Assembly: GCA_012523975.1 (NCBI GenBank)
Contig: JAAYSF010000094.1
Coordinates: 1 to 32,970 of the forward strand
Length of the DNA: 32,970 nt
Reading direction: 5' to 3'
Source of the DNA: Veillonellaceae bacterium
GTDB lineage: Bacteria > Bacillota > Negativicutes > JAAYSF01
The notes beneath the pieces are model-generated. The model was not told the DNA's origin, did not search any database, and saw nothing but the letters and a program-made list of their open reading frames with translations. Of the stretch, positions 18,681-31,200 are shown piece after piece. A program made the translations under genes and the position numbers. How positions within the stretch are numbered: position 1 is the first letter of the stretch; each line of letters starts with the position of its first letter.

Positions 18681-19634
18681 ATGTTTTTTCTATTTCGCTT
18701 CGCTAAATATCAAATTGTTATCGAAGCCCAACAGTTCGGACTAGAATTGCCGCGGTATAAGGGATCAACCTTAAGGGGCGGTTTCGGACATGTATTTCGG
18801 CGGATTTGCTGCAGCCAACCTAAAGAAATTTGTTCGGTATGTCTCTTAGCACAAGCCTGCCCTTATGCGCTCATCTTTGAGCCAGGGCCGTCGCCGGGCA
18901 GTGAAGTACTAAAAAACTATAGCAATATACCACGTCCCTTTGTTATTGAGCCTCCGCTTGACGATAAGATGCATTACGCTCCGGGCGAGCGTTTAAGCTT
19001 TAATTTGATTTTGATTGGACAAGCAGTTCAATATTTGCCGTATTTTATCCTTGCTTTTAAAGAACTAGGCAAGGTAGGTATCGGCAGGGGACGCTTACCG
19101 TACAAATTGGTAGACATTGCGGCGGCTATCAATAACCGAGAGACTGTGTCTATATATAATACATCCACCGGAACTATCACACCTGTAGATTCGGAACAAA
19201 CAGCAGCAATATTGGATGAGTCGACCAATAAAACTGACGGTGTGCTTAAACTCGACTTTTTAACGATGACCAGGTTAAAGTTTGAAAATACGCTGACTAC
19301 AGATATTCCTTTTCACGTTCTTATCAGAAACCTGCTTAGAAGGATAAGCACGCTCTATTATTTTTATCAGGACGGACCAAAACTAGATATTGATTACAAA
19401 ATGCTTATAGATAAAGCCGAAGAGATTAAGATAATATCATCTGAGTTGAGATTAGTTGACTGGGAGCGCTATTCACAGCGGCAAAATACCCATGTGAATA
19501 TGGGCGGACTGGTCGGAAGTGTAGTTTATGAAGGTAATGTTGAGCCTTTCATGCCGTTAATCAAGCTTGGCGAGGTTATTCATGTTGGTAAGGGGTGTGT
19601 GTTTGGGTTGGGGAAGTATGAGGTAGCTGAATAA
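18681..19634 (+). CDS. cas6: Cas6 pre-crRNA endoribonuclease (RAMP)
   Basis: A 317-residue RAMP protein of the Cas6 C-terminal-domain family. It is expected to cut the pre-crRNA inside each repeat, 8 nt before its 3' end, giving the ACTGAAAC handle. Support comes from the N-terminal RAMP strand (YQIVIEAQQ), YKGSTLRGGFGHVFRR with a following four-cysteine cluster (ICSVCLLAQACPYA), GIGRGR, and the C-terminal glycine-rich loop HVGKGCVFGLGKYEV (about 301-315). It is a separate leading gene, 207 nt upstream of cas8. AAGGAGA precedes the ATG. The catalytic residues cannot be named with confidence, since Cas6 active sites vary. The CxxC pair is typical of this longer Cas6 branch. Confidence 0.9.
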   Translation: MFFLFRFAKYQIVIEAQQFGLELPRYKGSTLRGGFGHVFRRICCSQPKEICSVCLLAQACPYALIFEPGPSPGSEVLKNYSNIPRPFVIEPPLDDKMHYAPGERLSFNLILIGQAVQYLPYFILAFKELGKVGIGRGRLPYKLVDIAAAINNRETVSIYNTSTGTITPVDSEQTAAILDESTNKTDGVLKLDFLTMTRLKFENTLTTDIPFHVLIRNLLRRISTLYYFYQDGPKLDIDYKMLIDKAEEIKIISSELRLVDWERYSQRQNTHVNMGGLVGSVVYEGNVEPFMPLIKLGEVIHVGKGCVFGLGKYEVAE

Positions 19635-19644
19635 AATTATGTAC

Positions 19645-19706
19645 CCATTAGACGGGCTGGCTAAGTAAGCAATTAATTAATAGTTTCAGTCTCCATTATA
19701 TGGATA
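19645..19706 (-). ncRNA. CreR-like mini-CRISPR RNA candidate between cas6 and cas8
   Basis: On the minus strand, 19704-19683 reads TCCA-TATAA-TGGA then GACTGAAAC. The last nine bases equal the 3' end of the array repeat, including the 8-nt handle that Cas6 leaves. The array repeat has TCCTC/GAGGA at the hairpin position; here the pair is TCCA/TGGA, so the fold is kept although bases changed. A TATAAT box (plus-strand 19712-19717) would place the transcript start at about 19705, right before the hairpin. The following 36-38 nt (19682 down to about 19645) have spacer length. The 5' half of the repeat and a second clear repeat are missing. Family knowledge: CreR/CreA guide RNAs in type I loci have this form and steer Cascade to a promoter. 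An array relic is the alternative. Confidence 0.6.
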
Positions 19707-19751
19707 AAAGTATTATAGCTTTTCTTTATAAAACTATACATAACTTACTTA

Positions 19752-19800
19752 TTTACGACAATAATAAATTCATTACTATTAAGTAATCTATTAAATAATA
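19752..19800 (+). promoter_or_regulatory. Putative cas8 operon promoter with tandem TATTAA sites
   Basis: TTTACG (19752-19757) and TACTAT (19774-19779) with 16-nt spacing make a plausible -35/-10 pair. Overlapping it are TATTAAGTAATC (19777-19788) and TATTAAATAATA (19789-19800), tandem near-copies. Each matches the first 11 nt of the spacer-like part of the minus-strand CreR-like RNA at 10 of 11 positions. The area is very A+T-rich. Confidence 0.4.
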
Positions 19801-19841
19801 TGGAAGGGAGAGTGAGAATTAAATGAGGCGACATCAAGGAG

Positions 19842-21266
19842 GTGATTTTTCTGCAATATACCGGACATCCATTTGTTGATGTTGGGATTGCTGTGCTTGA
19901 GTCTTACCTAAAAAAGTACTGCACAGAATTTACTGAACAGGACTTGAGTAAGGCAGCAGAATGGTTAAAAGACGTATATAAGCGGAAAGATTTTAAGGGC
20001 TACTTAACTATTCATTTTCCTAACTCAGGTTGGTGTAATGCAAATATTAAAGAGGATACCAAGGCTGAGTACATTAAAAAGGTATTAAAGTCTTATGGCG
20101 ATCCTCCATTATCTTCAAAACGATCGTGTGCTTTTTGCAACAATCTAGCGCAGTTTTTAGCTGATCGACAGCATATACCCTTACTAACAGGTACAACAGT
20201 TCTTGTAACTGCGCCTAATGGGGTAGCAGGTTTACCAGTTTGCGGTTATTGCTTAATGGCCATTCAATTTTATCCACTCGGGACAATAAAAGTTAATGGA
20301 CGTCCGCTATTTTGGTGGACCACCGATACAGATATGACATTTGAATTAATAAACAACACTGTACAGGAAGTAAGAAAAAGCTTAGCCACCAGCCAGGAGA
20401 AAGTTGTAAATTTTAAGTGGCCGTTTACTAGACTGTTAAGTCAGGCGCGAGAAATCTTAGACGTATATGATGCCAAAAGCCTGCAGGCAAAAAAAGAAAC
20501 CCCCTTGCCAGATTGTATTGGCTATCACGTAACTAATTATGGTTCGGAGCCGGATTACGATCAGTATCTTATTCCGAGGGAGTTGCTCCAATTTTGGCGG
20601 CATGTTAGAGTAGCGGCTAAAGATGTCCGCGAGGCACACCACTATGTCGAGACATCTTCATGGATTATACCTAAACCTAAAAAGAAAGGAGCGAAATCAC
20701 AAGGCACCTCTGGGGTAGACAGCGAGGGCATTGGCTTTCTGCGCAACAGCTATTATGAAGCCCTTGGCAAGGCATTTCAGGAGCGAAACTGGCAAACAAT
20801 CATCGGGCGAAGAATTATAGGGTTCTTCCTACATACGAAGGAAGAAAACTACCATTGGAATAATTACCAGCTATGTGAGCTGTTTTTAGGAAAGGTGGGC
20901 GGAATGGAAAAACAACGGCTAGATATTGTTAAAAAAATAGCTGACGATATTGTCGATCATCTAATATTGGGCAATAACGAGCCCAAATGGCTGGACAACC
21001 TTTACAATCGAGAAATTAAACCGAATGAATTTATGCGGTATCTAGTAAAGGTTCAAAGAAAGTTAGCGGTGCTTGGTCAGCCTATTAACTTAGATGATAT
21101 ATTGACAATGTTTGATATTTCATCTTCTGATGATCCTGGGCTCAAGGATGCATATTTGATTAGACAACTATTTCTTATTCGGATGTTTGAAAGAATCGGT
21201 GCGCGCAACAGAGATCTACTAAAATCAATAAATGATGAAAAGAATGAAAATGAGGAGGTTATGTAA
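19842..21266 (+). CDS. cas8b: Cas8b1/Cst1, large subunit of type I-B Cascade
   Basis: About 470 residues, the size and wording of the Cst1 (Tneap) branch of Cas8b. The N-terminus QYTGHPFVDVGIAVLESYL is characteristic. The zinc-binding pattern CAFCNN ... VCGYC (about residues 94-140) is also typical. It should recognise the PAM and stabilise the R-loop. The start is unclear: the open frame begins at GTG 19842, but that GTG lies inside the near-perfect AAGGAGGTGAT (19836-19846). The best-spaced codon after it is CTG 19851 (giving (M)QYTGHP), with ATT 19845 also possible. Two short overlapping ORFs at 19800-19879 precede or cover the start. It is first gene of cas8-cas7-cas5-cas3, and its TAA abuts the cas7 ATG. 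Confidence 0.9.
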   Translation: MIFLQYTGHPFVDVGIAVLESYLKKYCTEFTEQDLSKAAEWLKDVYKRKDFKGYLTIHFPNSGWCNANIKEDTKAEYIKKVLKSYGDPPLSSKRSCAFCNNLAQFLADRQHIPLLTGTTVLVTAPNGVAGLPVCGYCLMAIQFYPLGTIKVNGRPLFWWTTDTDMTFELINNTVQEVRKSLATSQEKVVNFKWPFTRLLSQAREILDVYDAKSLQAKKETPLPDCIGYHVTNYGSEPDYDQYLIPRELLQFWRHVRVAAKDVREAHHYVETSSWIIPKPKKKGAKSQGTSGVDSEGIGFLRNSYYEALGKAFQERNWQTIIGRRIIGFFLHTKEENYHWNNYQLCELFLGKVGGMEKQRLDIVKKIADDIVDHLILGNNEPKWLDNLYNREIKPNEFMRYLVKVQRKLAVLGQPINLDDILTMFDISSSDDPGLKDAYLIRQLFLIRMFERIGARNRDLLKSINDEKNENEEVM

Positions 21267-22361
21267 ATGGCTTTTTTATCCGGACTACTCCTTATTGACT
21301 GTCCGGCCTCAGCGCTTAATAATGCCGGAAAAGACGAAGATGCTAACACTGACAACGCAACCGGAGTAAAGGCAGTTAAAGCAAAAGACGGTGTATATCC
21401 ATATGTCTCGGCGCAAGCCTTTCGGTACTGGTTGCGCGAGACAGTAAAGAAAGAGGCAACTTGGACCGCAACGCCGATATTCCGTGAAGGCAAAATTGCG
21501 TATACTGACGCAAATCCAATAAAATATGCTGAAGATGATCTTTTTGGCTATATGCGTGCTCCATCCAAGAAAAGTGATGCTGCTAAAAAAAGAACTGAAA
21601 CTGGTCTTTTAGACACTGCAACAAGTCTTGAAGATGGCGTAACGTTAACCCGTCATTCGCCATTCAAGGTTAGCACGTTAATATCTATTGCACCACTAAA
21701 AGAACTTACGCGGGATTTTGGGGTAATGGCTCGCCATGAAGGTGACCCAGTGCCGTATGAACATCAATTGTATAGAACAACACTACAGGGATTATTTTCA
21801 CTTGATTTAGCGATGACCGGAAGGTTTTATCACATTCAGCGTACAGGTTTTAAGCACCTCGATGCTGTCCGGATTCAACTGGCGGAAGAAATGGGACTAG
21901 CACAATGTGACGATGGCAAGGCTTACGAGTTACCGCTCGGTCAAAGGCTTAGCCGGATAGCAACTTTGCTTAAAGGTATTGCTACAATTAACGGTGGAGC
22001 AAAACAAGCTATCCACTATACCGATGTAAGCCCGAAGTTCTGCATTCTGGCTGTGGCGAAAGGCGGAAATCATTTGTTCTCTACTTCTGTCACTGCGGAT
22101 AGTAAAGGTAAACCAGAAATAAAGCTTGAAGCTGTAAAAGAAATAGCTCGAGTCTATAAGGACGAGCTATTAAGTGGAATTTACGTAGGCCTAAGTCAAG
22201 GATATCTCGATGGTCAACGTAAGGAGTTGGAAGAAGCATTAAGATTAATAAGTAGCCAAGAAGAATACGGTAAAAGAATAACGTTTATAGGGCATCCGAT
22301 AGAGGCAATTAACGCTTTCCTAGATGAGATGGGTAAGGAAAGAGAGCTATGGCTAAGTTAG
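21267..22361 (+). CDS. cas7: Cas7/Cst2 (DevR family), Cascade backbone subunit
   Basis: A 364-residue RAMP-fold protein of the Cst2/DevR group, which polymerises along the crRNA spacer. Typical wording: N-terminal FLSGLLLIDCPASALNNAGKD, then YPYVSAQAFRYWLRETV, the flexible thumb region around residues 90-130, and TRDFGVMARHEG. AGGAGG lies inside the last cas8 codons and the ATG directly follows the cas8 TAA, so translation is probably coupled. It overlaps cas5 by 13 nt. This pairing of Cst1, Cst2 and Cas5t defines the subtype I-B (Tneap) effector. Confidence 0.93.
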   Translation: MAFLSGLLLIDCPASALNNAGKDEDANTDNATGVKAVKAKDGVYPYVSAQAFRYWLRETVKKEATWTATPIFREGKIAYTDANPIKYAEDDLFGYMRAPSKKSDAAKKRTETGLLDTATSLEDGVTLTRHSPFKVSTLISIAPLKELTRDFGVMARHEGDPVPYEHQLYRTTLQGLFSLDLAMTGRFYHIQRTGFKHLDAVRIQLAEEMGLAQCDDGKAYELPLGQRLSRIATLLKGIATINGGAKQAIHYTDVSPKFCILAVAKGGNHLFSTSVTADSKGKPEIKLEAVKEIARVYKDELLSGIYVGLSQGYLDGQRKELEEALRLISSQEEYGKRITFIGHPIEAINAFLDEMGKERELWLS

Positions 22362-23128
22362 AAAAAGTCCTGCGGATACGCAGCAGCGCGGTAACCGCAT
22401 CTTTTCGGTATCCTCATGTTATGGTTGGGAAATTGCCTACTTTTGAGATGCCGCCTCCTGCGACAATTTACGGACATTTGTGCGGGGTGCTAGGCGAATG
22501 GTTCGACCCAGATGGAATGGAATTTGCCTATACATTTACTCATCAGGGTATTGGTGAAGATATAGAATTAGGTCAAATGATTGAATTTGGTACAGGTAAA
22601 GATAATAAACAGTTAGGCGGATTGCCGCAAAATATGATTGGTAGCCTGAATCCGCAACGCCGGCAGTTTCTGTTAAAACCAGAAATGACATTATATCTTA
22701 AGGGCTCAGATAACTTGCTGGCTAGATTTGAGAGAGCCTTCCGGTCACCGGCGTTTGCCTATATTATTGGGCGTAGTCAAGACGCTGCAACTATTAAATC
22801 GGTAGAATGGGTAGAACTAGTGCCGTCAGATAAAGCCTTTTTTTCCAATACACTGCTTCCATGGTCGCTTAGACAATGGGTGTTTCCAGGAAGGCCAGTA
22901 TACATGCCAAAAGCTATTAATTATCAAAAATTAAGGGAGCCGGTATTTGAGCGTTATTTAGAAATCAATGACAGAGCGCTTCGCATATTTGGACAGGGTG
23001 TTGAAGAAGATCTAATCAACCGTGAACCATTTACCACGATGATGGTAGATTTGGAAGATACAAAAACCTTTTTGGGCCAGAACCTTCCGAGGGGGGTATG
23101 GTTTCATGCTGTCGAAGGTATGGGCTAA
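22349..23128 (+). CDS. cas5: Cas5 (Cas5t type), Cascade subunit
   Basis: A 259-residue RAMP protein that caps the 5' handle of the crRNA in Cascade. The N-terminal strand and loop are typical of Cas5: LRIRSSAVTASFRYPHVMVGKLPTFEMPPPATIYGHLCGVLGEW (residues about 8-51). Its start overlaps the cas7 end by 13 nt, and its 3' end overlaps cas3 by 23 nt, so the three genes are tightly coupled. In I-B systems Cas5 is not catalytic, because a dedicated Cas6 is present upstream. Confidence 0.92.
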   Translation: MAKLEKVLRIRSSAVTASFRYPHVMVGKLPTFEMPPPATIYGHLCGVLGEWFDPDGMEFAYTFTHQGIGEDIELGQMIEFGTGKDNKQLGGLPQNMIGSLNPQRRQFLLKPEMTLYLKGSDNLLARFERAFRSPAFAYIIGRSQDAATIKSVEWVELVPSDKAFFSNTLLPWSLRQWVFPGRPVYMPKAINYQKLREPVFERYLEINDRALRIFGQGVEEDLINREPFTTMMVDLEDTKTFLGQNLPRGVWFHAVEGMG

Positions 23129-25436
23129 ATCAGCGGGTGTTCCTGGTGAACAGGGTCAGACCTTAGTTGAACATACTTGCGAAGTCGTTAAGCAAATGGG
23201 TAATTTTATTAAGCTATATGAAAAAGAAATATCTGCAGTTCAAGAAATAAATTTGGCACGTGTTTTACTATATTCAGCAATTTTACATGATGTTGGTAAG
23301 TGTCATCCTAAGTTTCAAGAGCAACTGCGTGGCCAAGGGGTATTTGGCCTTCGGCATGAGATTTTAAGCCTGGGATTTCTACAGTTCTTTGATATACCTG
23401 TAAAGGAACGAGGTTTTTTGGCTGCTGCTGTAGCTCTCCATCACAAGGATTGGAGAATGATTGTCGAAGGTAAAGGAAGCATGCCGGCCTACTTTGCTCT
23501 CGGTTTATTACCGCAAGAAATCGAACCGCTTAACGAACTAACTGCAGAAATAACAGGCGAATTAATTGCAACAATAAAAACTTATTTAGAAACCGCGCCG
23601 CTAATAATCCAGGATCAGACAGGTTTGAAGGTCGAAGGCTATAAGTTTAGAGGACAGATAGAAAGAAAACTCAATGAAGAAATATATTTAAACCTAAAAC
23701 AGATAAACCAGTTAATAGCAGATTTCGTTCGGCGTGAAGGCCGTCGGCAGGTAGTTGACGAGAGGGCTGTCTATGTCGGCGTTCTAGCCCGTGGACTACT
23801 TATGTCATCTGACCATCTGGCCAGTGTTGGCAATGTTTGTTTTCGTGATGGTTTCGCCAATGTTGAAGAAGTTATTGGCGCAATTAAAAGGAAAAAGACT
23901 GAGTTAATGCCGCATCAGCAACAGATTGCTAATATAGTTGGAGATGCTATTTTAGTTGCTCCAACTGGGTCAGGAAAAACTGAGGCCGCCCTGCTATGGG
24001 CGGCCAAACAGAGAGAATTTAAAAAAAGCAAGGGCAGAATGTTTATGCTCCTGCCTTATCGGGCCAGCATGAATGCTATGGGAAACCGGCTTAGCAAAGT
24101 ATTTGATAAAAGGTCGGTAGCAGTTATTCATGCCAAAAGCTTAATTCGCAACTTTGAAAATTTGGCTAATATGGAATATTCACCGAGTCAAGCTATTGCT
24201 ATCGCCCATCATCAAGAAAGCATAGCCAGGTTAAATTCAACTATGCTGCGAGTATGCAGTCCTTACCAGCTTATCAAAGCCTTTTTTGGTCATAAGGGTT
24301 ATGAAGCTACACTTTGTTCAGCAATATGTTCTCAATTAGTCTTTGATGAAATACATGCATATAATACTCAGATAACAGCTTTGACACTAATAGCAGCACG
24401 TTATCTGTGCAGGCGCTATAATGCAAGTGTTCTCTTTATGACGGCTACTTTGCCAAGTCATTTGCGTGATGCAATTAAGCGCTTATTTCCGAATATAGCG
24501 CCGATCGTTCAACCTCCATCTTATTGGTTAAAGAAAATTCAACGTCATAGATTTAAATTTTTAGACTGCCATGCTCTATCAGCAGATAGTGTTAACGTTA
24601 TATTAGCCGAGGCAAAAAAGGGATCGGTATTAGTAGTTGTAAATAGAGTTGATAGGGCAATCAAACTTGTATCCTTACTGGAAAGATACGATAAAGATGT
24701 TGTTTTATTACATAGCCGGTTTAATGCGCGGGATCGTGGCACTAAAGAACAGCAACTATCAGCAACTCCGGGGAAAATACTAGTAGCCACTCAAGTGGTA
24801 GAAGTTTCGCTTAATATTGACTATGATACCGGCTTTTTTGAACTAGCGCCACTGGAGTCTCTTTTACAGCGTGCTGGGCGGGTAAATCGAATGGGAAATA
24901 AAAAAGATTATTCAGATATAAATATTTTTGAGCATTTTCCAGGAGATGAATGGATTAAGGAGACTGCACCATATAACCCGAATCATTTACAGCAAGTGCT
25001 CGGCACATTAAAAAATTATATAGCAGAAACCCACAATGGTGTTTGGGATGAAAGTCTAGCGGGTGAATTAGTAGATAAATCTTACCCTTCAGATATGAAA
25101 GAAGAGTTGCTGTTAAAAATTAATCACTTTGTAGAAGAATTTGAAACTAACTTTGCCAATACGCTACAACCTTTTGGTGGACAAAGTTTAGAAACTATTA
25201 AGACGCAACTAGCCCAATGGGATAAACTATTTGATGGTATAGAAATTTTACCTGAATGTCTTATTCAAGAGGCGCTTTCTAGCCATAACAATCTAGAAGT
25301 AGATAGATTAAAGGTGCCTATAACTCAGAGCCAATTTAACAGATTGACTAAAGAAGGTAAGCTATACAGTGTTGAGTACATAAATGGTCTAATTGCAAAA
25401 TGTGAGTATAGTAAGAAACTAGGTTTAATCCTATAA
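23106..25436 (+). CDS. cas3: Cas3 nuclease-helicase
   Basis: A 776-residue fusion of HD nuclease and superfamily 2 helicase that degrades the DNA strand exposed by Cascade. HD domain: H23 in VEHTCEVV, H61-D62 in AILHDVGKCHPKF, H84 in LRHEI, and H112-H113 in ALHHKDW. Helicase: Walker A APTGSGKTE (about 285-293), DEIH (414-417), MTATLP (445-450), and motif VI LLQRAGRVNRMG. All motifs are intact, so interference is likely active. It overlaps cas5 by 23 nt, and GGGGGG at 23091-23096 provides its ribosome-binding site. It is last in the effector operon, followed by a terminator at 25534-25560. Confidence 0.96.
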   Translation: MLSKVWAKSAGVPGEQGQTLVEHTCEVVKQMGNFIKLYEKEISAVQEINLARVLLYSAILHDVGKCHPKFQEQLRGQGVFGLRHEILSLGFLQFFDIPVKERGFLAAAVALHHKDWRMIVEGKGSMPAYFALGLLPQEIEPLNELTAEITGELIATIKTYLETAPLIIQDQTGLKVEGYKFRGQIERKLNEEIYLNLKQINQLIADFVRREGRRQVVDERAVYVGVLARGLLMSSDHLASVGNVCFRDGFANVEEVIGAIKRKKTELMPHQQQIANIVGDAILVAPTGSGKTEAALLWAAKQREFKKSKGRMFMLLPYRASMNAMGNRLSKVFDKRSVAVIHAKSLIRNFENLANMEYSPSQAIAIAHHQESIARLNSTMLRVCSPYQLIKAFFGHKGYEATLCSAICSQLVFDEIHAYNTQITALTLIAARYLCRRYNASVLFMTATLPSHLRDAIKRLFPNIAPIVQPPSYWLKKIQRHRFKFLDCHALSADSVNVILAEAKKGSVLVVVNRVDRAIKLVSLLERYDKDVVLLHSRFNARDRGTKEQQLSATPGKILVATQVVEVSLNIDYDTGFFELAPLESLLQRAGRVNRMGNKKDYSDINIFEHFPGDEWIKETAPYNPNHLQQVLGTLKNYIAETHNGVWDESLAGELVDKSYPSDMKEELLLKINHFVEEFETNFANTLQPFGGQSLETIKTQLAQWDKLFDGIEILPECLIQEALSSHNNLEVDRLKVPITQSQFNRLTKEGKLYSVEYINGLIAKCEYSKKLGLIL

Positions 25437-25569: not shown

Positions 25570-25597
25570 TATGACTAGCTAATCGGCTGGCTATAAT
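25570..25597 (+). promoter_or_regulatory. Putative cas1 promoter
   Basis: TATAAT at 25592-25597, with TATGAC at 25570-25575 as a weak -35 (16-nt spacer). It lies after the cas3 terminator and 37 nt before the cas1 GTG. Confidence 0.5.
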
Positions 25598-25634
25598 GCC
25601 AATAATAGTTAAATTATGGAAAGGAGTGATTAAG

Positions 25635-26642
25635 GTGCAGCTATTTATATCGAATTATGGAACCTTTGTTGGAAAGAAAAGCGAGCGACTGGTTATTAAA
25701 GAAAAAGGTCAAGTTGTAGGTGAGCACCCGTTTCATGATGTAGAACATGTGATGGTTGATAGCCTAGGGGTGAGCATTTCTACTGACGCTATTCTCGACT
25801 GTATGGAACATGGAATCCCAATTAGCTTTATGACACCCTCAGGAAATCCATATGCTAAGCTAATTCCGCCAACCTTAACCGGCACTGTCGTTACACGACG
25901 GGAACAGCTTTTTGCTTTTCGCGATCAAAGAAGCATTGAACTTTGCAAGGCGTTTATTGACGGGAAGATAAGCAATCAAATCAATACTGTAAAGTATTTT
26001 GCCAAATACCGTAAAACAGCTAACCCCGAAGATTATAAGCAATTGCAGACGATGCTTGATAAGATGGCACTTATCGCTAAAGAATTAAGCAAGATTAAAG
26101 GCATCTGTATAGATGATGCTCGTGGCTCAATCATGGCATTAGAGGGGCGAATAGGAAATCTTTATTGGGAGTGCGTTAAATTATTGACTTCGGGAAAAGC
26201 GGACTTTCCGGGGCGGGAGCATAGGGGGGCAGAAGATGCAATAAATTCGATGCTAAACTATGGTTATGCTATTTTAGCGCATCAAGTTGAGACAGCTCTT
26301 ACCTTAGCGGGGCTTGATCCCTTCGGCGGTTTTCTCCATGTAGATAGGCCAGGAAAAAAGAGTTTAGTATATGACTTTATGGAAGAATTTCGTCAGCCGG
26401 TAGTTGATAAAGTTGTTATTGCAATGGTTAACAAAGGAACTGATGTAAAGCTTTCCGATGGATTGCTCGAGCAAGATACCAGGCGAGCACTGGCAGCAAA
26501 GATAAATGAACGGCTTGAAAGTACCGAACGTTTTAAAGGCAAAAAGCAGCGGCTTAAAACTATTATCCAAACACAGGCTAGACGAATAGCTACTTTTGTA
26601 CGAAATGAGGCTAAGTACAAACCTTTCATCTGTGGGTGGTAG
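25635..26642 (+). CDS. cas1: Cas1 integrase
   Basis: A 335-residue metal-dependent integrase that inserts new spacers at the leader end of the array together with Cas2. The catalytic residues are visible as E170 in MALEGRIGNLYWE, H235 in GFLHVDRPGKKSLVYDF and the acidic E250-E251 of FMEEFR. The start is GTG 25635, with AAGGAG at 25621-25626 and 8-nt spacing, giving MQLFISNYGTFVGKK; the longer frame from 25596 runs through the -10 box and is rejected. It is first gene of a separately promoted adaptation operon. cas2 follows after 1 nt. Confidence 0.95.
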   Translation: MQLFISNYGTFVGKKSERLVIKEKGQVVGEHPFHDVEHVMVDSLGVSISTDAILDCMEHGIPISFMTPSGNPYAKLIPPTLTGTVVTRREQLFAFRDQRSIELCKAFIDGKISNQINTVKYFAKYRKTANPEDYKQLQTMLDKMALIAKELSKIKGICIDDARGSIMALEGRIGNLYWECVKLLTSGKADFPGREHRGAEDAINSMLNYGYAILAHQVETALTLAGLDPFGGFLHVDRPGKKSLVYDFMEEFRQPVVDKVVIAMVNKGTDVKLSDGLLEQDTRRALAAKINERLESTERFKGKKQRLKTIIQTQARRIATFVRNEAKYKPFICGW

Positions 26643-26643
26643 T

Positions 26644-26910
26644 ATGAAAACATATATAATTTATGATATCGAAGAAGATAAGCTACGGACTAAGATTTTT
26701 GAAACCTGCAAGGATTATGGTTTGCAGCATGCCCAGTATAGTACCTTTGTCGGCGAATTAAATCATAACCGTCGTGAAGAAATTTATCTAAAAATTAAAA
26801 AGCTTATTGGTCGTAAGCGGGGCAAGGTAGCCATTGTTCCGGTTTGCGATAAAGATGCTAGGCTTGCTAAAGCGATTGATACTATTAATGAGGGTTGCCA
26901 TGAATGTTAA
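26644..26910 (+). CDS. cas2: Cas2
   Basis: An 88-residue ferredoxin-fold protein and partner of Cas1 in spacer integration. It starts MKTYIIYDIEEDKLR, with the conserved aspartate of the first strand at residue 8, and continues with LQHAQYSTFVGEL typical of Cas2. The ATG at 26644 comes directly after the cas1 TAG, and GGGTGG upstream is a modest ribosome-binding site, so coupling to cas1 is likely. The 3' end overlaps cas4 by 11 nt. An upstream extension of the frame into cas1 is not supported. Confidence 0.95.
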   Translation: MKTYIIYDIEEDKLRTKIFETCKDYGLQHAQYSTFVGELNHNRREEIYLKIKKLIGRKRGKVAIVPVCDKDARLAKAIDTINEGCHEC

Positions 26911-27511
26911 GGTTACAGATATCAAGCAATACATTTACTGTCCGCGCATAATTTATTTTCTCTATGTTTGTCCGGTAAATAAAAAGACTACCTATAAAAT
27001 GCAAGCCGGCAAAGAAGAACATTTCATACTGGATAAGTTAGAGAGACGTCGAACCCTAAAGCGCTATAATTTAGAATCGGGCGAAAGAGTTTTCCATGCT
27101 TGGCTTAATTCTCCGCGGTTGGGGTTGCAGGGTAAGCTCGACTTACACATTATCTCGGGTAAGGATTACTTTCCGGTAGAATTTAAATTTACTACCAGAG
27201 GAGCCTCGCTTAATCATAAATATCAGCTTATCAGCTATGCCTTATTGTTAGAAGATAGTTTTAAATGCAACATCAGGTTTGGACTGTTATATCTTGTGCC
27301 GACTCAAACAATAATCCCGATAGAGATCACTCCTAACAGTCGGTTATTTGTTCATGAAATTATCGACAGGATACGCGAGATAGTTAAGTCTGAGCGAATG
27401 CCTGAGAAACAGAAGAAAACGGAGAAGTGCCGCGACTGTGAATATCTAAGGTTTTGCGGAGACATTGACTTTATACGAAAGGGGAATAAAATAAGTGTAT
27501 TTTTTAACTGA
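26900..27511 (+). CDS. cas4: Cas4 exonuclease
   Basis: A 203-residue PD-(D/E)XK nuclease with an iron-sulfur cluster. Cluster ligands: C14 in YIYCPRIIYF and three C-terminal cysteines in KCRDCEYLRFC. The nuclease core is GLQGKLDLHII followed by FPVEFKFT (E-x-K), with QLISYALLLE (motif QxxxY). Cas4 trims prespacers and selects those next to a PAM. Start ATG 26900 overlaps the end of cas2 by 11 nt. It is followed by a second Cas4-superfamily gene, csa1, overlapping by 17 nt, so the array is served by two Cas4-like enzymes. Confidence 0.94.
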   Translation: MNVKVTDIKQYIYCPRIIYFLYVCPVNKKTTYKMQAGKEEHFILDKLERRRTLKRYNLESGERVFHAWLNSPRLGLQGKLDLHIISGKDYFPVEFKFTTRGASLNHKYQLISYALLLEDSFKCNIRFGLLYLVPTQTIIPIEITPNSRLFVHEIIDRIREIVKSERMPEKQKKTEKCRDCEYLRFCGDIDFIRKGNKISVFFN

Positions 27512-28418
27512 AGCTGAGCGTAAGATGTTTTTAAAAAAAATGCTGCCCAAAGCCCGGAGGTTGGACGTAAATGATGAATTAAGGGGTTGGAATTGGCATC
27601 TGCCGACACTGGAACCATCCTACGAAGAACGGTTAGGAGTTTTTGAAGTAAGCAATGCCTATTGTCCTACGCACCGCGATTTATATTTAAACAGAGTACT
27701 GAAGAACAAGTTAAAGCCCAATTATTTCATGATATCAGGCAAGGCTTTTCATCAAATACTAGTGGATGTAGTTACCCATGCAAAAAGGCTTATTTATACT
27801 TATGGCGTCCACAATCTCCAGGAGTTAATCGCGGAACTTAGAAAGCCAGTTGAGATTACTTGGCCGTCTGAAATGTATTCTTTGAGCGATGAGCAGAAGG
27901 CTGAGCTAAAAATAAAAGGTAATTTTTTACGAGACTATGAGCAAAGCAGGATTTGTTCACGTGTTGAAGAAATATTAACGCAACAGCCATATATTGGGAG
28001 TGATTCGCTGGCCCATTTGGCGGCACCGATAGTCTGTGAAAATAAACTTGATGGCAGATTTTTGGGACTTAGTCCATATTTAAGCGCTGATGCCTTTGTC
28101 TTGTCCGAGCCAATGATTTTAGATTTTAAGTTTGGCCAGCCCGAGGAGTTTCATCGCCTGGCAACTACAGGTTATGCCCTAGTTATGGAGGCCATTCATG
28201 AAGTTCCCGTAAACTTAGGCTGCATAATTTATGGGCAATTTAAAAACGAGCGGCTTATAGTAACAAAGGACATGCATTTTATTGATGATGAGTTAAGACA
28301 GTGGTTTATCGAATCACGCGACGAAAAAATGCGAATGATATTCGAAGAAATTGACCCTGGATTGGCAGATAACTGTAAAGAATTTTGTCCAGGCTATTCT
28401 CTATGCCACACTAATTAG
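27495..28418 (+). CDS. csa1: Csa1/Cas4-family adaptation protein (second Cas4)
   Basis: A 307-residue protein of the Csa1 branch of Cas4 nucleases, usually found in type I-A adaptation modules. Support: N-terminus YFLTEAERKMFLKKMLPKAR, cluster cysteine C57 in NAYCPTHRDLYL, nuclease core CENKLDG ... SADAFVLSEPMILDFKFGQPEE (D-x-K) and TTGYALVME. The C-terminal cysteine cluster is CKEFCPGYSLC. In archaea with two Cas4 proteins, one defines the PAM end and the other the opposite end of the prespacer; the same split is inferred here. Start GTG 27495 has GGGG upstream and restores the conserved N-terminus; ATG 27525 is the alternative. It is last gene before the CRISPR leader. Confidence 0.85.
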   Translation: MYFLTEAERKMFLKKMLPKARRLDVNDELRGWNWHLPTLEPSYEERLGVFEVSNAYCPTHRDLYLNRVLKNKLKPNYFMISGKAFHQILVDVVTHAKRLIYTYGVHNLQELIAELRKPVEITWPSEMYSLSDEQKAELKIKGNFLRDYEQSRICSRVEEILTQQPYIGSDSLAHLAAPIVCENKLDGRFLGLSPYLSADAFVLSEPMILDFKFGQPEEFHRLATTGYALVMEAIHEVPVNLGCIIYGQFKNERLIVTKDMHFIDDELRQWFIESRDEKMRMIFEEIDPGLADNCKEFCPGYSLCHTN

Positions 28419-28564: not shown

Positions 28565-31200
28565 GTTACATTCGCCTTCCTCGTTTAATGAGGACTGAAA
28601 CACATAAACTGCTGTTCAACTATGGCTTGTTTTTCTTGTTACATTCGCCTTCCTCGTTTAATGAGGACTGAAACAAACTGGACCAAAATTATGAACTTGA
28701 ACAAAGACAAGCGTTACATTCGCCTTCCTCGTTTAATGAGGACTGAAACCCGCAAAAGGGACATGGTCTTAACTTACTTTCGCTCAGTTACATTCGCCTT
28801 CCTCGTTTAATGAGGACTGAAACTTAATCGCTTCGACTGCTGTTATTCCTCTTTGCGCTGTTACATTCGCCTTCCTCGTTTAATGAGGACTGAAACAACA
28901 TCCAAGATGCATATACTGTCAGGCCGCTCAACCTTGTTACATTCGCCTTCCTCGTTTAATGAGGACTGAAACGGAACTATTGTCGGCGGCACTTCAAGCA
29001 TTCATAACCCGTTACATTCGCCTTCCTCCTTTAATGAGGACTGAAACGTAGAAATTATTGAGGTCTTAGGATATGCAAAAGACGGGTTACATTCGCCTTC
29101 CTCGTTTAATGAGGACTGAAACACAACAAGGAAAAGGCCAATATCCTCCTGCAAATTAGTTACATTCGCCTTCCTCGTTTAATGAGGACTGAAACGCAGA
29201 TATCCTTTGACGCGCTCTTTAACATCAGGACATGTTACATTCGCCTTCCTCGTTTAATGAGGACTGAAACGGAAAGCAGTTGTCACTTCCATTTTAAGCA
29301 AAGCAGTTACATTCGCCTTCCTCGTTTAATGAGGACTGAAACAAAAAACAAGGGCGCGGATACCAGTCGTACCGCCGCCGTTACATTCGCCTTCCTCGTT
29401 TAATGAGGACTGAAACACAGAAGCTTGTGCAGCTGCACCTGCAGCGGCAGCGGTTACATTCGCCTTCCTCGTTTAATGAGGACTGAAACTTACTACAAAG
29501 TCACTTTGTGAAGCATATGTCACCGCGTTACATTCGCCTTCCTCGTTTAATGAGGACTGAAACGCATGATGGCAAGTATATCTTCACTTAATCCATCAGT
29601 TACATTCGCCTTCCTCGTTTAATGAGGACTGAAACACGGTGGTGCTCTGTATGCTCAAGAAAAAGGCAATATACGTTACATTCGCCTTCCTCGTTTAATG
29701 AGGACTGAAACATACATACCTTTACCATGTGTCAAGGTTTTTTACTTGACGTTACATTCGCCTTCCTCGTTTAATGAGGACTGAAACTATAGTTAGTGCT
29801 ATATATCTTGCCGGAATTATATCGGTTACATTCGCCTTCCTCGTTTAATGAGGACTGAAACCTTATATATACCCCCTCCATACAACAACTTACGAATAAA
29901 GTTACATTCGCCTTCCTCGTTTAATGAGGACTGAAACAGCAAAACGACTTCTGCAAATTAGCGGCATTTAAGAGTTACATTCGCCTTCCTCGTTTAATGA
30001 GGACTGAAACGCTGAACTAAACATTCCGATAGGATCCCGTTACTCCTGTTACATTCGCCTTCCTCGTTTAATGAGGACTGAAACTTCAAACAGCACTTGG
30101 GTTATGAATCATATATACTTCCGTTACATTCGCCTTCCTCGTTTAATGAGGACTGAAACGGAACCATGACGACAGAGGGCAGGAAGATTCAAACGAAGTT
30201 ACATTCGCCTTCCTCGTTTAATGAGGACTGAAACTCTAATAATGTTTCATAGTCGGGCTCATATTCAACTGTTACATTCGCCTTCCTCGTTTAATGAGGA
30301 CTGAAACTTGATATGAAATTCCTAGCTTTTCGCTCCATGCTTTAGTTACATTCGCCTTCCTCGTTTAATGAGGACTGAAACAGTGGCAGAGATAGAATGG
30401 ATAGTAACGGCAACGACAGTTACATTCGCCTTCCTCGTTTAATGAGGACTGAAACGTTTCAATAACCTTGTTGAAGGCATTGACATACTCGTTGTTACAT
30501 TCGCCTTCCTCGTTTAATGAGGACTGAAACGAAAAGGAAACATAAATCTTAGGGAATGTATCAAATGCGTTACATTCGCCTTCCTCGTTTAATGAGGACT
30601 GAAACACACTGTAACTACTAATTTTGCAGCTGATGATACTTTAGGTTACATTCGCCTTCCTCGTTTAATGAGGACTGAAACCTCCTTAACTGTTTAATAA
30701 ACTCTTTAACCTTTTGGTATGTTACATTCGCCTTCCTCGTTTAATGAGGACTGAAACCGATAAACAGCTAAATTCCTGCCGTAAATTTCCGTTCATGTTA
30801 CATTCGCCTTCCTCGTTTAATGAGGACTGAAACTTCCAAAAAATACTATTTCCCTTGGAAATGCTTTTAGTTACATTCGCCTTCCTCGTTTAATGAGGAC
30901 TGAAACACAATTTAACACTTACAGTTCCTTCTGGCGCCACACGTTACATTCGCCTTCCTCGTTTAATGAGGACTGAAACCTACAAGCTCATGCTCGGTAT
31001 ACCACTCGTTGCCGTGTTACATTCGCCTTCCTCGTTTAATGAGGACTGAAACTATGTGTTTTCCTCGATGCGAAGTATTACACCGTTTGGTTACATTCGC
31101 CTTCCTCGTTTAATGAGGACTGAAACAGGTACATTACCCTTTCCAGCCTGTCCTTACGGTCGGGTTACATTCGCCTTCCTCGTTTAATGAGGACTCAACC
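28565..31200 (+). CRISPR. CRISPR array, 36 repeats of 37 nt, 35 spacers
   Basis: I counted 36 repeats (first 28565-28601, last 31164-31200) and 35 spacers of 35-39 nt. The repeat starts GTTACATTCGCC, contains the hairpin TCCTC-GTTTAAT-GAGGA and ends CTGAAAC; the 8-nt 3' handle would be ACTGAAAC. Repeats are identical except the seventh (29011-29047), which has C instead of G at the loop start (CCTCCTTT), and the last, which ends CTCAACC. The degenerate last repeat places the leader on the csa1 side and new spacers at the left end. Transcription on the plus strand fits the handle orientation for the adjacent type I-B Cas6. All spacers appear distinct by eye. The array is large and regular, which suggests it is or recently was active. 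Confidence 0.99.

Follow-up and report, generated by a model that had tools for sequence, protein, structure and literature searches.

CreR crRNA-like RNAs reportedly repress cas promoters, a finding said to go back to Liu et al. 2023, Cell Host Microbe 31:1481. In the description given by a review, the crRNA-like CreR RNA acts at the promoter of the cas operon to which it belongs, in general without an associated toxin, and CrePA joins a CreA guide to CreP, a toxic protein that usually contains a KilA-N domain (PMC12737573). The creA pattern comprises a psiR1 that keeps the Cas5-binding handle and a psiR2 that loses it (PMC9458426). In type I-B CreA, seed bases 1-5 and 7-11 are needed, and mutations at nt 6 or 12 are tolerated (PMC8501985). 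In the type I-B system of H. hispanica, repression by spacers no longer than 24 nt is accompanied by neither cleavage nor priming (PMC10989794), and the type I-B PAM of Thermoanaerobacter kivui was inferred to be CCN and then tested as CCA and CCC (PMC12044746). A type II counterpart cited in PMC9458426 is the scaRNA of Francisella novicida, a degenerate-repeat RNA through which Cas9 is directed to a promoter and represses it.

The window, that is, the whole stretch of 32,970 nt that was analysed, carries on its plus strand a complete type I-B locus, in which cas6 is followed by a 207-nt gap, cas8b, cas7, cas5, cas3, the adaptation genes, and a CRISPR array:

18681..19634, plus strand: cas6 (PADLOC Cas6, E 3e-104)
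19842..21266, plus strand: cas8b of the Cas8b1/Cst1 kind, ORF called from GTG 19842 (PADLOC Cas8b, E 3e-53; NCBIfam Cas8b1/Cst1)
21267..25436, plus strand: cas7, cas5, and cas3, the remainder of the effector operon
25596..28418, plus strand: cas1, cas2, cas4, and a second Cas4/Csa1-type gene, the adaptation genes
28565..31200, plus strand: CRISPR array, 36 repeats of 37 nt and 35 spacers of 35-39 nt

The 37-nt array repeat is GTTACATTCGCCTTCCTCGTTTAATGAGGACTGAAAC. Its final copy (31183-31200) is degenerate in the handle (ACTCAACC) and marks the leader-distal end; since this copy lies at the right end of the array, the leader is placed on the opposite side, after the last cas4-type gene. The reading frames of cas6, cas8b, cas7, cas5, and cas3 are all open, and thus Cascade and Cas6 are intact and co-located with a small repeat-spacer unit in the cas6-cas8b gap. 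This unit, at 19635-19719, is very probably a mini-CRISPR with two repeats whose product, a CreR-type guide RNA, represses the cas8b-cas7-cas5-cas3 operon of its host. Self-regulating CreR guides are already known, and the unit would be a further, well-supported example. Its parts are as follows:

19683..19719, minus strand: psiR1, degenerate CRISPR repeat GCTATAATACTTTTATCCATATAATGGAGACTGAAAC (23/37 versus the array repeat)
19704-19692, minus strand: psiR1 hairpin TCCATATAATGGA
19690-19683, minus strand: psiR1 5' handle ACTGAAAC, intact
19657..19682, minus strand: psiS, guide tract TATTAATTAATTGCTTACTTAGCCAG, 26 nt up to the psiR2 stem, with nt 1-21 as the pairing part
19635..19656, minus strand: psiR2, second degenerate repeat CCCGTCTAATGGGTACATAATT (14/22 versus the repeat end)
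19733..19761, minus strand: top-scoring promoter of the unit, TTGTCG-17-TATAGT, start ~19726 (consensus match only)

No other non-array segment of the window matches the array repeat as well as psiR1, the runner-up reaching 20/37, and only 3 of its mismatches fall within the last 18 nt. The array stem TCCTC/GAGGA is replaced in psiR1 by TCCA/TGGA, with pairing retained. Taken alone, psiR1 appears only modestly significant (~6e-4 for the cas6-cas8b gap by our own arithmetic), because 18-mers that deviate at no more than 3 positions have ~7 chance occurrences genome-wide, as judged from a reversed-pattern control. In a preliminary description, psiR1 had been presented as a lone minus-strand repeat-like element with an intact handle and a stem that still pairs; handle and stem are indeed there, but the element is not lone, given psiR2 at 19656-19635. 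The latter is composed of CCCGTCTAATGGG-TACATAATT, in which the array's CTC/GAG has become CCC/GGG within the stem-loop CCCGTCTAATGGG, still a stem, whereas the handle is worn (TACATAAT); by score, psiR2 is predicted to double as a weak intrinsic terminator. The same description had proposed a spacer-length tract behind the handle, and a tract is present, although at 26 nt it is shorter than the array spacers. It had also pointed to a TATAAT box, which exists at 19717-19712 as part of an alternative promoter, TGTATA-17-TATAAT, with a start at ~19705; TTGTCG-17-TATAGT, however, scores better and is predicted to be placed so as to transcribe all of psiR1. In Rfam, no match was obtained at gathering scores, and the single sub-threshold CRISPR-repeat match, which overlaps the guide's target, had 17 bits (gathering 35) and E 4.7. 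Outside the source genome, the search for DNA related to the gap returned only short coding or AT-rich pieces.

Besides psiR2, the feature that goes beyond the preliminary description, and the decisive one, is that the guide has a PAM-flanked target in the cas8b leader:

19780..19800, minus strand: protospacer TATTATTTAATAGATTACTTA, located in the cas8b leader (over guide nt 1-20, 16/17 readable positions match)
19801..19803, minus strand: PAM 5'-CCA-3' on the cas8b-proximal side of the protospacer
19752..19779, plus strand: top-scoring cas8b promoter, TTTACG-16-TACTAT, start ~19786 (weak consensus match)

At positions 6 and 12 of a guide, the bases are unread by type I Cascade. The guide tract TATTAATTAATTGCTTACTTA agrees with the protospacer at 18/21 bases, the mismatches being at 6, 12, and 14; when 6, 12, and 18 are ignored, the only readable mismatch left in the first 20 nt is that at nt 14, and the second-best site in the 33-kb window scores 13. 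A score of at least 16 was reached in 2/20000 guide shuffles and 1/20000 region shuffles (p ~1e-4). Pattern searches over the 2.47-Mb genome, on which the genome-wide checks of both repeat and target are based, identified the protospacer as the sole zero-mismatch partner for the pattern's 18 specified bases, all other sites having at least 2 mismatches. The PAM, which conforms to the CCN shown for type I-B of T. kivui (PMC12044746), faces cas8b and ends 47 nt upstream of its likely start, and the protospacer overlaps the predicted, weak cas8b promoter and start region. Copies of TATTAAGTAATC/TATTAAATAAT on the plus strand were rejected as the target, with a mismatch at nt 7 and a best score of 13/17 versus 16/17 at the minus-strand site. 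For deriving a PAM from the array's own spacers, no usable protospacers were found in phage or plasmid records, and the four leader-proximal array spacers had no matches in IMG/VR; one Lactococcus phage match (E 0.2) was disregarded, as were weak matches of array spacers of the related locus L024 in Pseudomonas phages (E 0.2-0.8).

The beginning of cas8b is itself unusual. The gene seemingly lacks a canonical start, a strong SD, AAGGAGGTGA (19836-19845), being followed by TTTTT-CTG, and the sole canonical in-frame start, GTG 19842, is located within the SD. Translation likely begins at CTG 19851, after the SD; the N-termini of relatives align close to this CTG. In two related loci, L097 and L098, the first effector genes past the targets also seem to begin with ATA/ATC/ATT, and such non-canonical starts may possibly reflect translational throttling. 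On the minus strand, a six-codon mini-ORF, ATG AAT TTA TTA TTG TCG TAA (~19752-19775), lies between the target and psiR1 without an SD; it superficially resembles the CreT mini-ORF of H. hubeiense, although TTA, at 20 per thousand, does not count as a rare codon here.

The arrangement suggests how the unit would work. The minus-strand promoter would yield an RNA spanning the unit, which Cas6 would cut at the psiR1 hairpin and perhaps also at psiR2, and the resulting crRNA-like RNA with the handle ACTGAAAC would be loaded into Cascade. The loaded complex would bind the protospacer (19800-19780) beside the CCA PAM, over the predicted cas8b promoter, and so block transcription. Pairing would extend over ~18-21 nt and end after nt 21, which would allow binding, and destruction by Cas3 is not expected; such a length fits repression (compare the spacers of up to 24 nt in PMC10989794). 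The outcome would be negative feedback, in which abundant free Cascade lowers cas8b transcription, whereas Cascade engaged by ordinary crRNAs or blocked by anti-CRISPRs would relieve the repression.

Comparable units are found in relatives. One with the same layout is that of L024, from the same class as the source, whose Cas6 is 60% but whose Cas8 is only 28% identical to that of the window. Its cas6-cas8 gap contains CCCGAACAGTTGGGGGACTGAAAT – TAGATTTGTTATTTATGCTTCCTT – CCCCGCCTAATGGGGACTGAAAA, oriented divergent from cas8 and with a psiR2 hairpin identical to that of the window at 12/13 positions (own count), and a good predicted promoter, TTGAAA-17-TATAAT, precedes psiR1. The guide has its target 21 nt before the cas8 ATG, with a CCT PAM and, over nt 1-20, no mismatches other than those at 6 and 18. 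Both guide and target are wholly unlike those of the window, which indicates that the pairing was retained while the sequence changed.

For a wider view, 61 loci around cas6/cas8 relatives were scanned by taking every non-array GACTGAAA-like site and seeking, blind to the PAM, a nearby match to the next 20 nt, with duplicated segments, palindromes, and low-complexity pairs excluded. Named relatives in genome contigs were obtained with a cas6 alignment as query and none with the single cas8 protein. Eleven main units emerged (the window, L024, L082, L083, L097, L085, L098, L105, L025, L030, and L077), all of which have CC at -3/-2 (CC[A/C/T], 11/11), compared with 11/226 random pairs of equal score. 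Mismatches occur at position 6 in 8/11 units, at 12 in 9/11, and at 18 in 6/11 (own counts), so that 23/33 cells at 6/12/18 are mismatched versus 5/165 at the remaining positions 1-17. The search selected for matching at positions that are not multiples of six, whereas 6/12/18 were not selected, and a mismatch rate of ~70% there is what would be expected of unread bases. This preference counts against simple DNA duplication, which would match at these positions too. When 141 loci were considered, the number of distinct CC-PAM units was 14 with the true handle and averaged 0.36 (max 2) over 25 permuted handles. The handle-adjacent hairpins vary yet pair (TCCA/TGGA, CTCC/GGAG, CCCT/AGGG, TCCT/AGGA, and ACCT/AGGT), with stems of at least 3 bp in 16/20 units versus 16% of shuffles, for which the rule was slightly stricter. 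Among high-scoring sites, L101 was rejected as a duplicated segment, and L111, L022, and L046 were rejected as palindromic, of low complexity, or without a CC PAM; matches scoring 13 (of 15) were kept as candidates only, their CC PAM frequency (10/129) being near background. In the nearest cas8 relatives (60%, 56%, and 44%), cas6 and cas8 are almost contiguous and no unit is detectable, so the distribution is patchy. A gene for a WYL/WCX-domain HTH regulator (Pfam) lies near the mini-CRISPR in L025 (13891-14901), L082 (1274-2338), L097 (1699-2694), and L077 (10436-11440); in L025, L082, and L077 it separates cas6 from the unit, and neither the window nor L024 has it in this place.

The idea, already put forward in the preliminary description, that a CreR/CreA-like unit limits its own effector is thus supported by the match to the cas8b leader, the CC PAM, the Cascade-type spacing of mismatches, and the recurrence with co-varying guide-target pairs. 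Other explanations deserve to be weighed against it. The unit might instead act as in CreTA: as the antitoxin, a CreA guide would keep silent a small toxin RNA or mini-ORF that is encoded between the target and cas8b or, on the other strand, from the target to psiR1, and the cell would thereby be addicted to Cascade. The creTA of H. hispanica likewise lies between cas6 and cas8 (PMC8501985), small hydrophobic ORFs occupy the equivalent place in several relatives, and an 18-codon ORF of the window, MRRHQGGDFSAIYRTSIC (19823-19879), opens with ATG AGG CGA, whose Arg codons are less used here (4.6 and 4.1 per thousand), loosely like the rare codons of CreT. Yet this ORF, the sole small one on the cas8b side, has poor SD spacing, is non-hydrophobic, and overlaps the cas8b start; the target-to-cas8b interval of the window holds no hydrophobic or convincing toxin-like ORF, although an RNA toxin, for instance one that sequesters a tRNA, may still be encoded there; in L024, of equal layout, the cas8 ATG directly follows the target with no mini-ORF; and the PAM side of the target faces cas8b. 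The CreTA explanation is accordingly improbable, and the coupling to a protective RNA or toxin that had been raised earlier finds no support in the window, where there is no convincing toxin ORF beside the target, although something similar is seen in several relatives.

It is very improbable that the unit is a decayed remnant, a fragment of an old array or an acquisition accident no longer transcribed or used, even though both repeats are strongly degenerate, the spacing is short, and the occurrence among relatives is patchy: guide and target still agree at the readable positions and have diverged at 6 and 12, both in the window unit and in independent units of different sequence, the PAM is conserved throughout, and a dead fragment would not go on pairing with the operon leader. 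Chance, by which an AT-rich gap would combine a hairpin and GACTGAAAC with a direct repeat that arose by accident or with two copies of a protein-binding site, is hardly credible. The gap is short, low in complexity, and AT-rich, and psiR1-like 18-mers (3 mismatches at most) number ~7 per genome by chance; against this stand the guide-target p of ~1e-4 on top of the repeat evidence, a CC PAM that has a chance frequency of ~5%, the recurrence of units in relatives far above control motifs, and the fact that a duplicated site would not prefer mismatches at 6, 12, and 18. Autorepression by a CreR-type guide hence is the preferred explanation for the window.

In some relatives, the region between the target and the effector operon contains hydrophobic single-pass ORFs of 27-48 aa, most with an SD, namely in L025 (29 aa, 15 nt past the protospacer), L077, a Thermincola ferriacetica MAG (28 aa), L082 (48 aa), L083 (27 aa), and L030 (~28 aa, own reading), and L086 and L139/Pelotomaculum propionicicum are further candidates. 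These ORFs possibly encode CRISPR-repressed peptide toxins, in which case the units would be antitoxin guides for a membrane peptide. A broader proposal, somewhat less than evenly probable in our estimate, is that the cas6-centred, mostly Firmicute type I loci share one mini-CRISPR slot that takes two forms: direct repression of the effector operon (the window, L024, L097, and L098) or repression of a 27-48-aa hydrophobic peptide before the operon (L025, L030, L077, L082, and L083, with L086 and L139 as candidates). No description of a CRISPR-repressed hydrophobic peptide toxin was found in the literature covered, in which CreR is represented by a review (PMC12737573). If the proposal is true, this would be a small membrane-peptide toxin repressed by CRISPR, distinct from the RNA (CreT) and KilA-N (CreP) toxins, and the CreR of the window would be a toxin-less form or the ancestral state. 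Beyond this, a Cas8b1-type I-B locus whose probable self-limiting guide can be read from sequence offers a testable guide, target, and PAM. A simple rule (the handle, ignored positions 6/12/18, a CC PAM, and a PAM side toward the operon) detects units in Firmicute loci that searches by sequence similarity miss. With it, one can measure how widespread CRISPR autoregulation is, and it hints at peptide toxins under CRISPR repression as a possible new class.

Among known systems, scaRNA resembles the unit, as far as its citation in PMC9458426 goes, in that a degenerate repeat RNA turns an effector to transcriptional repression; it differs in using type II Cas9 against a lipoprotein operon, in contrast to Cascade and cas genes in the window. 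With CrePA, the window shares a guide of the CreA type, but its target is not accompanied by a gene for a KilA-N or any other toxin; on the PAM side, cas8b comes next. The likeness to CreTA (H. hispanica, H. hubeiense, and Acinetobacter WCHA45) is closer, including the order psiR1-psiS-psiR2, a handle that survives in psiR1 but not in psiR2, tolerated mismatches at 6 and 12, and a place near cas6, in H. hispanica even the same cas6-cas8 position; in contrast, the target in the window belongs to cas8b, with no convincing toxin beside it. As described in the review (PMC12737573), CreR likewise is a degenerate repeat-spacer unit within a cas locus whose guide matches the effector-operon leader and needs no toxin, with predicted autorepression that is sensitive to crRNA load and anti-CRISPRs. 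Relative to that description, the guide, target, and repeats of the window are new, the unit is a divergent two-repeat one in a Cas8b1/Cst1-type I-B locus, and its psiR2 hairpin may double as a terminator. Judged by the CreR features that can be tested on sequence, the window appears to hold them all: a repeat-derived handle and hairpin in a cas locus, a leader-matching guide, a PAM, no toxin ORF, and an intact Cascade/Cas6.
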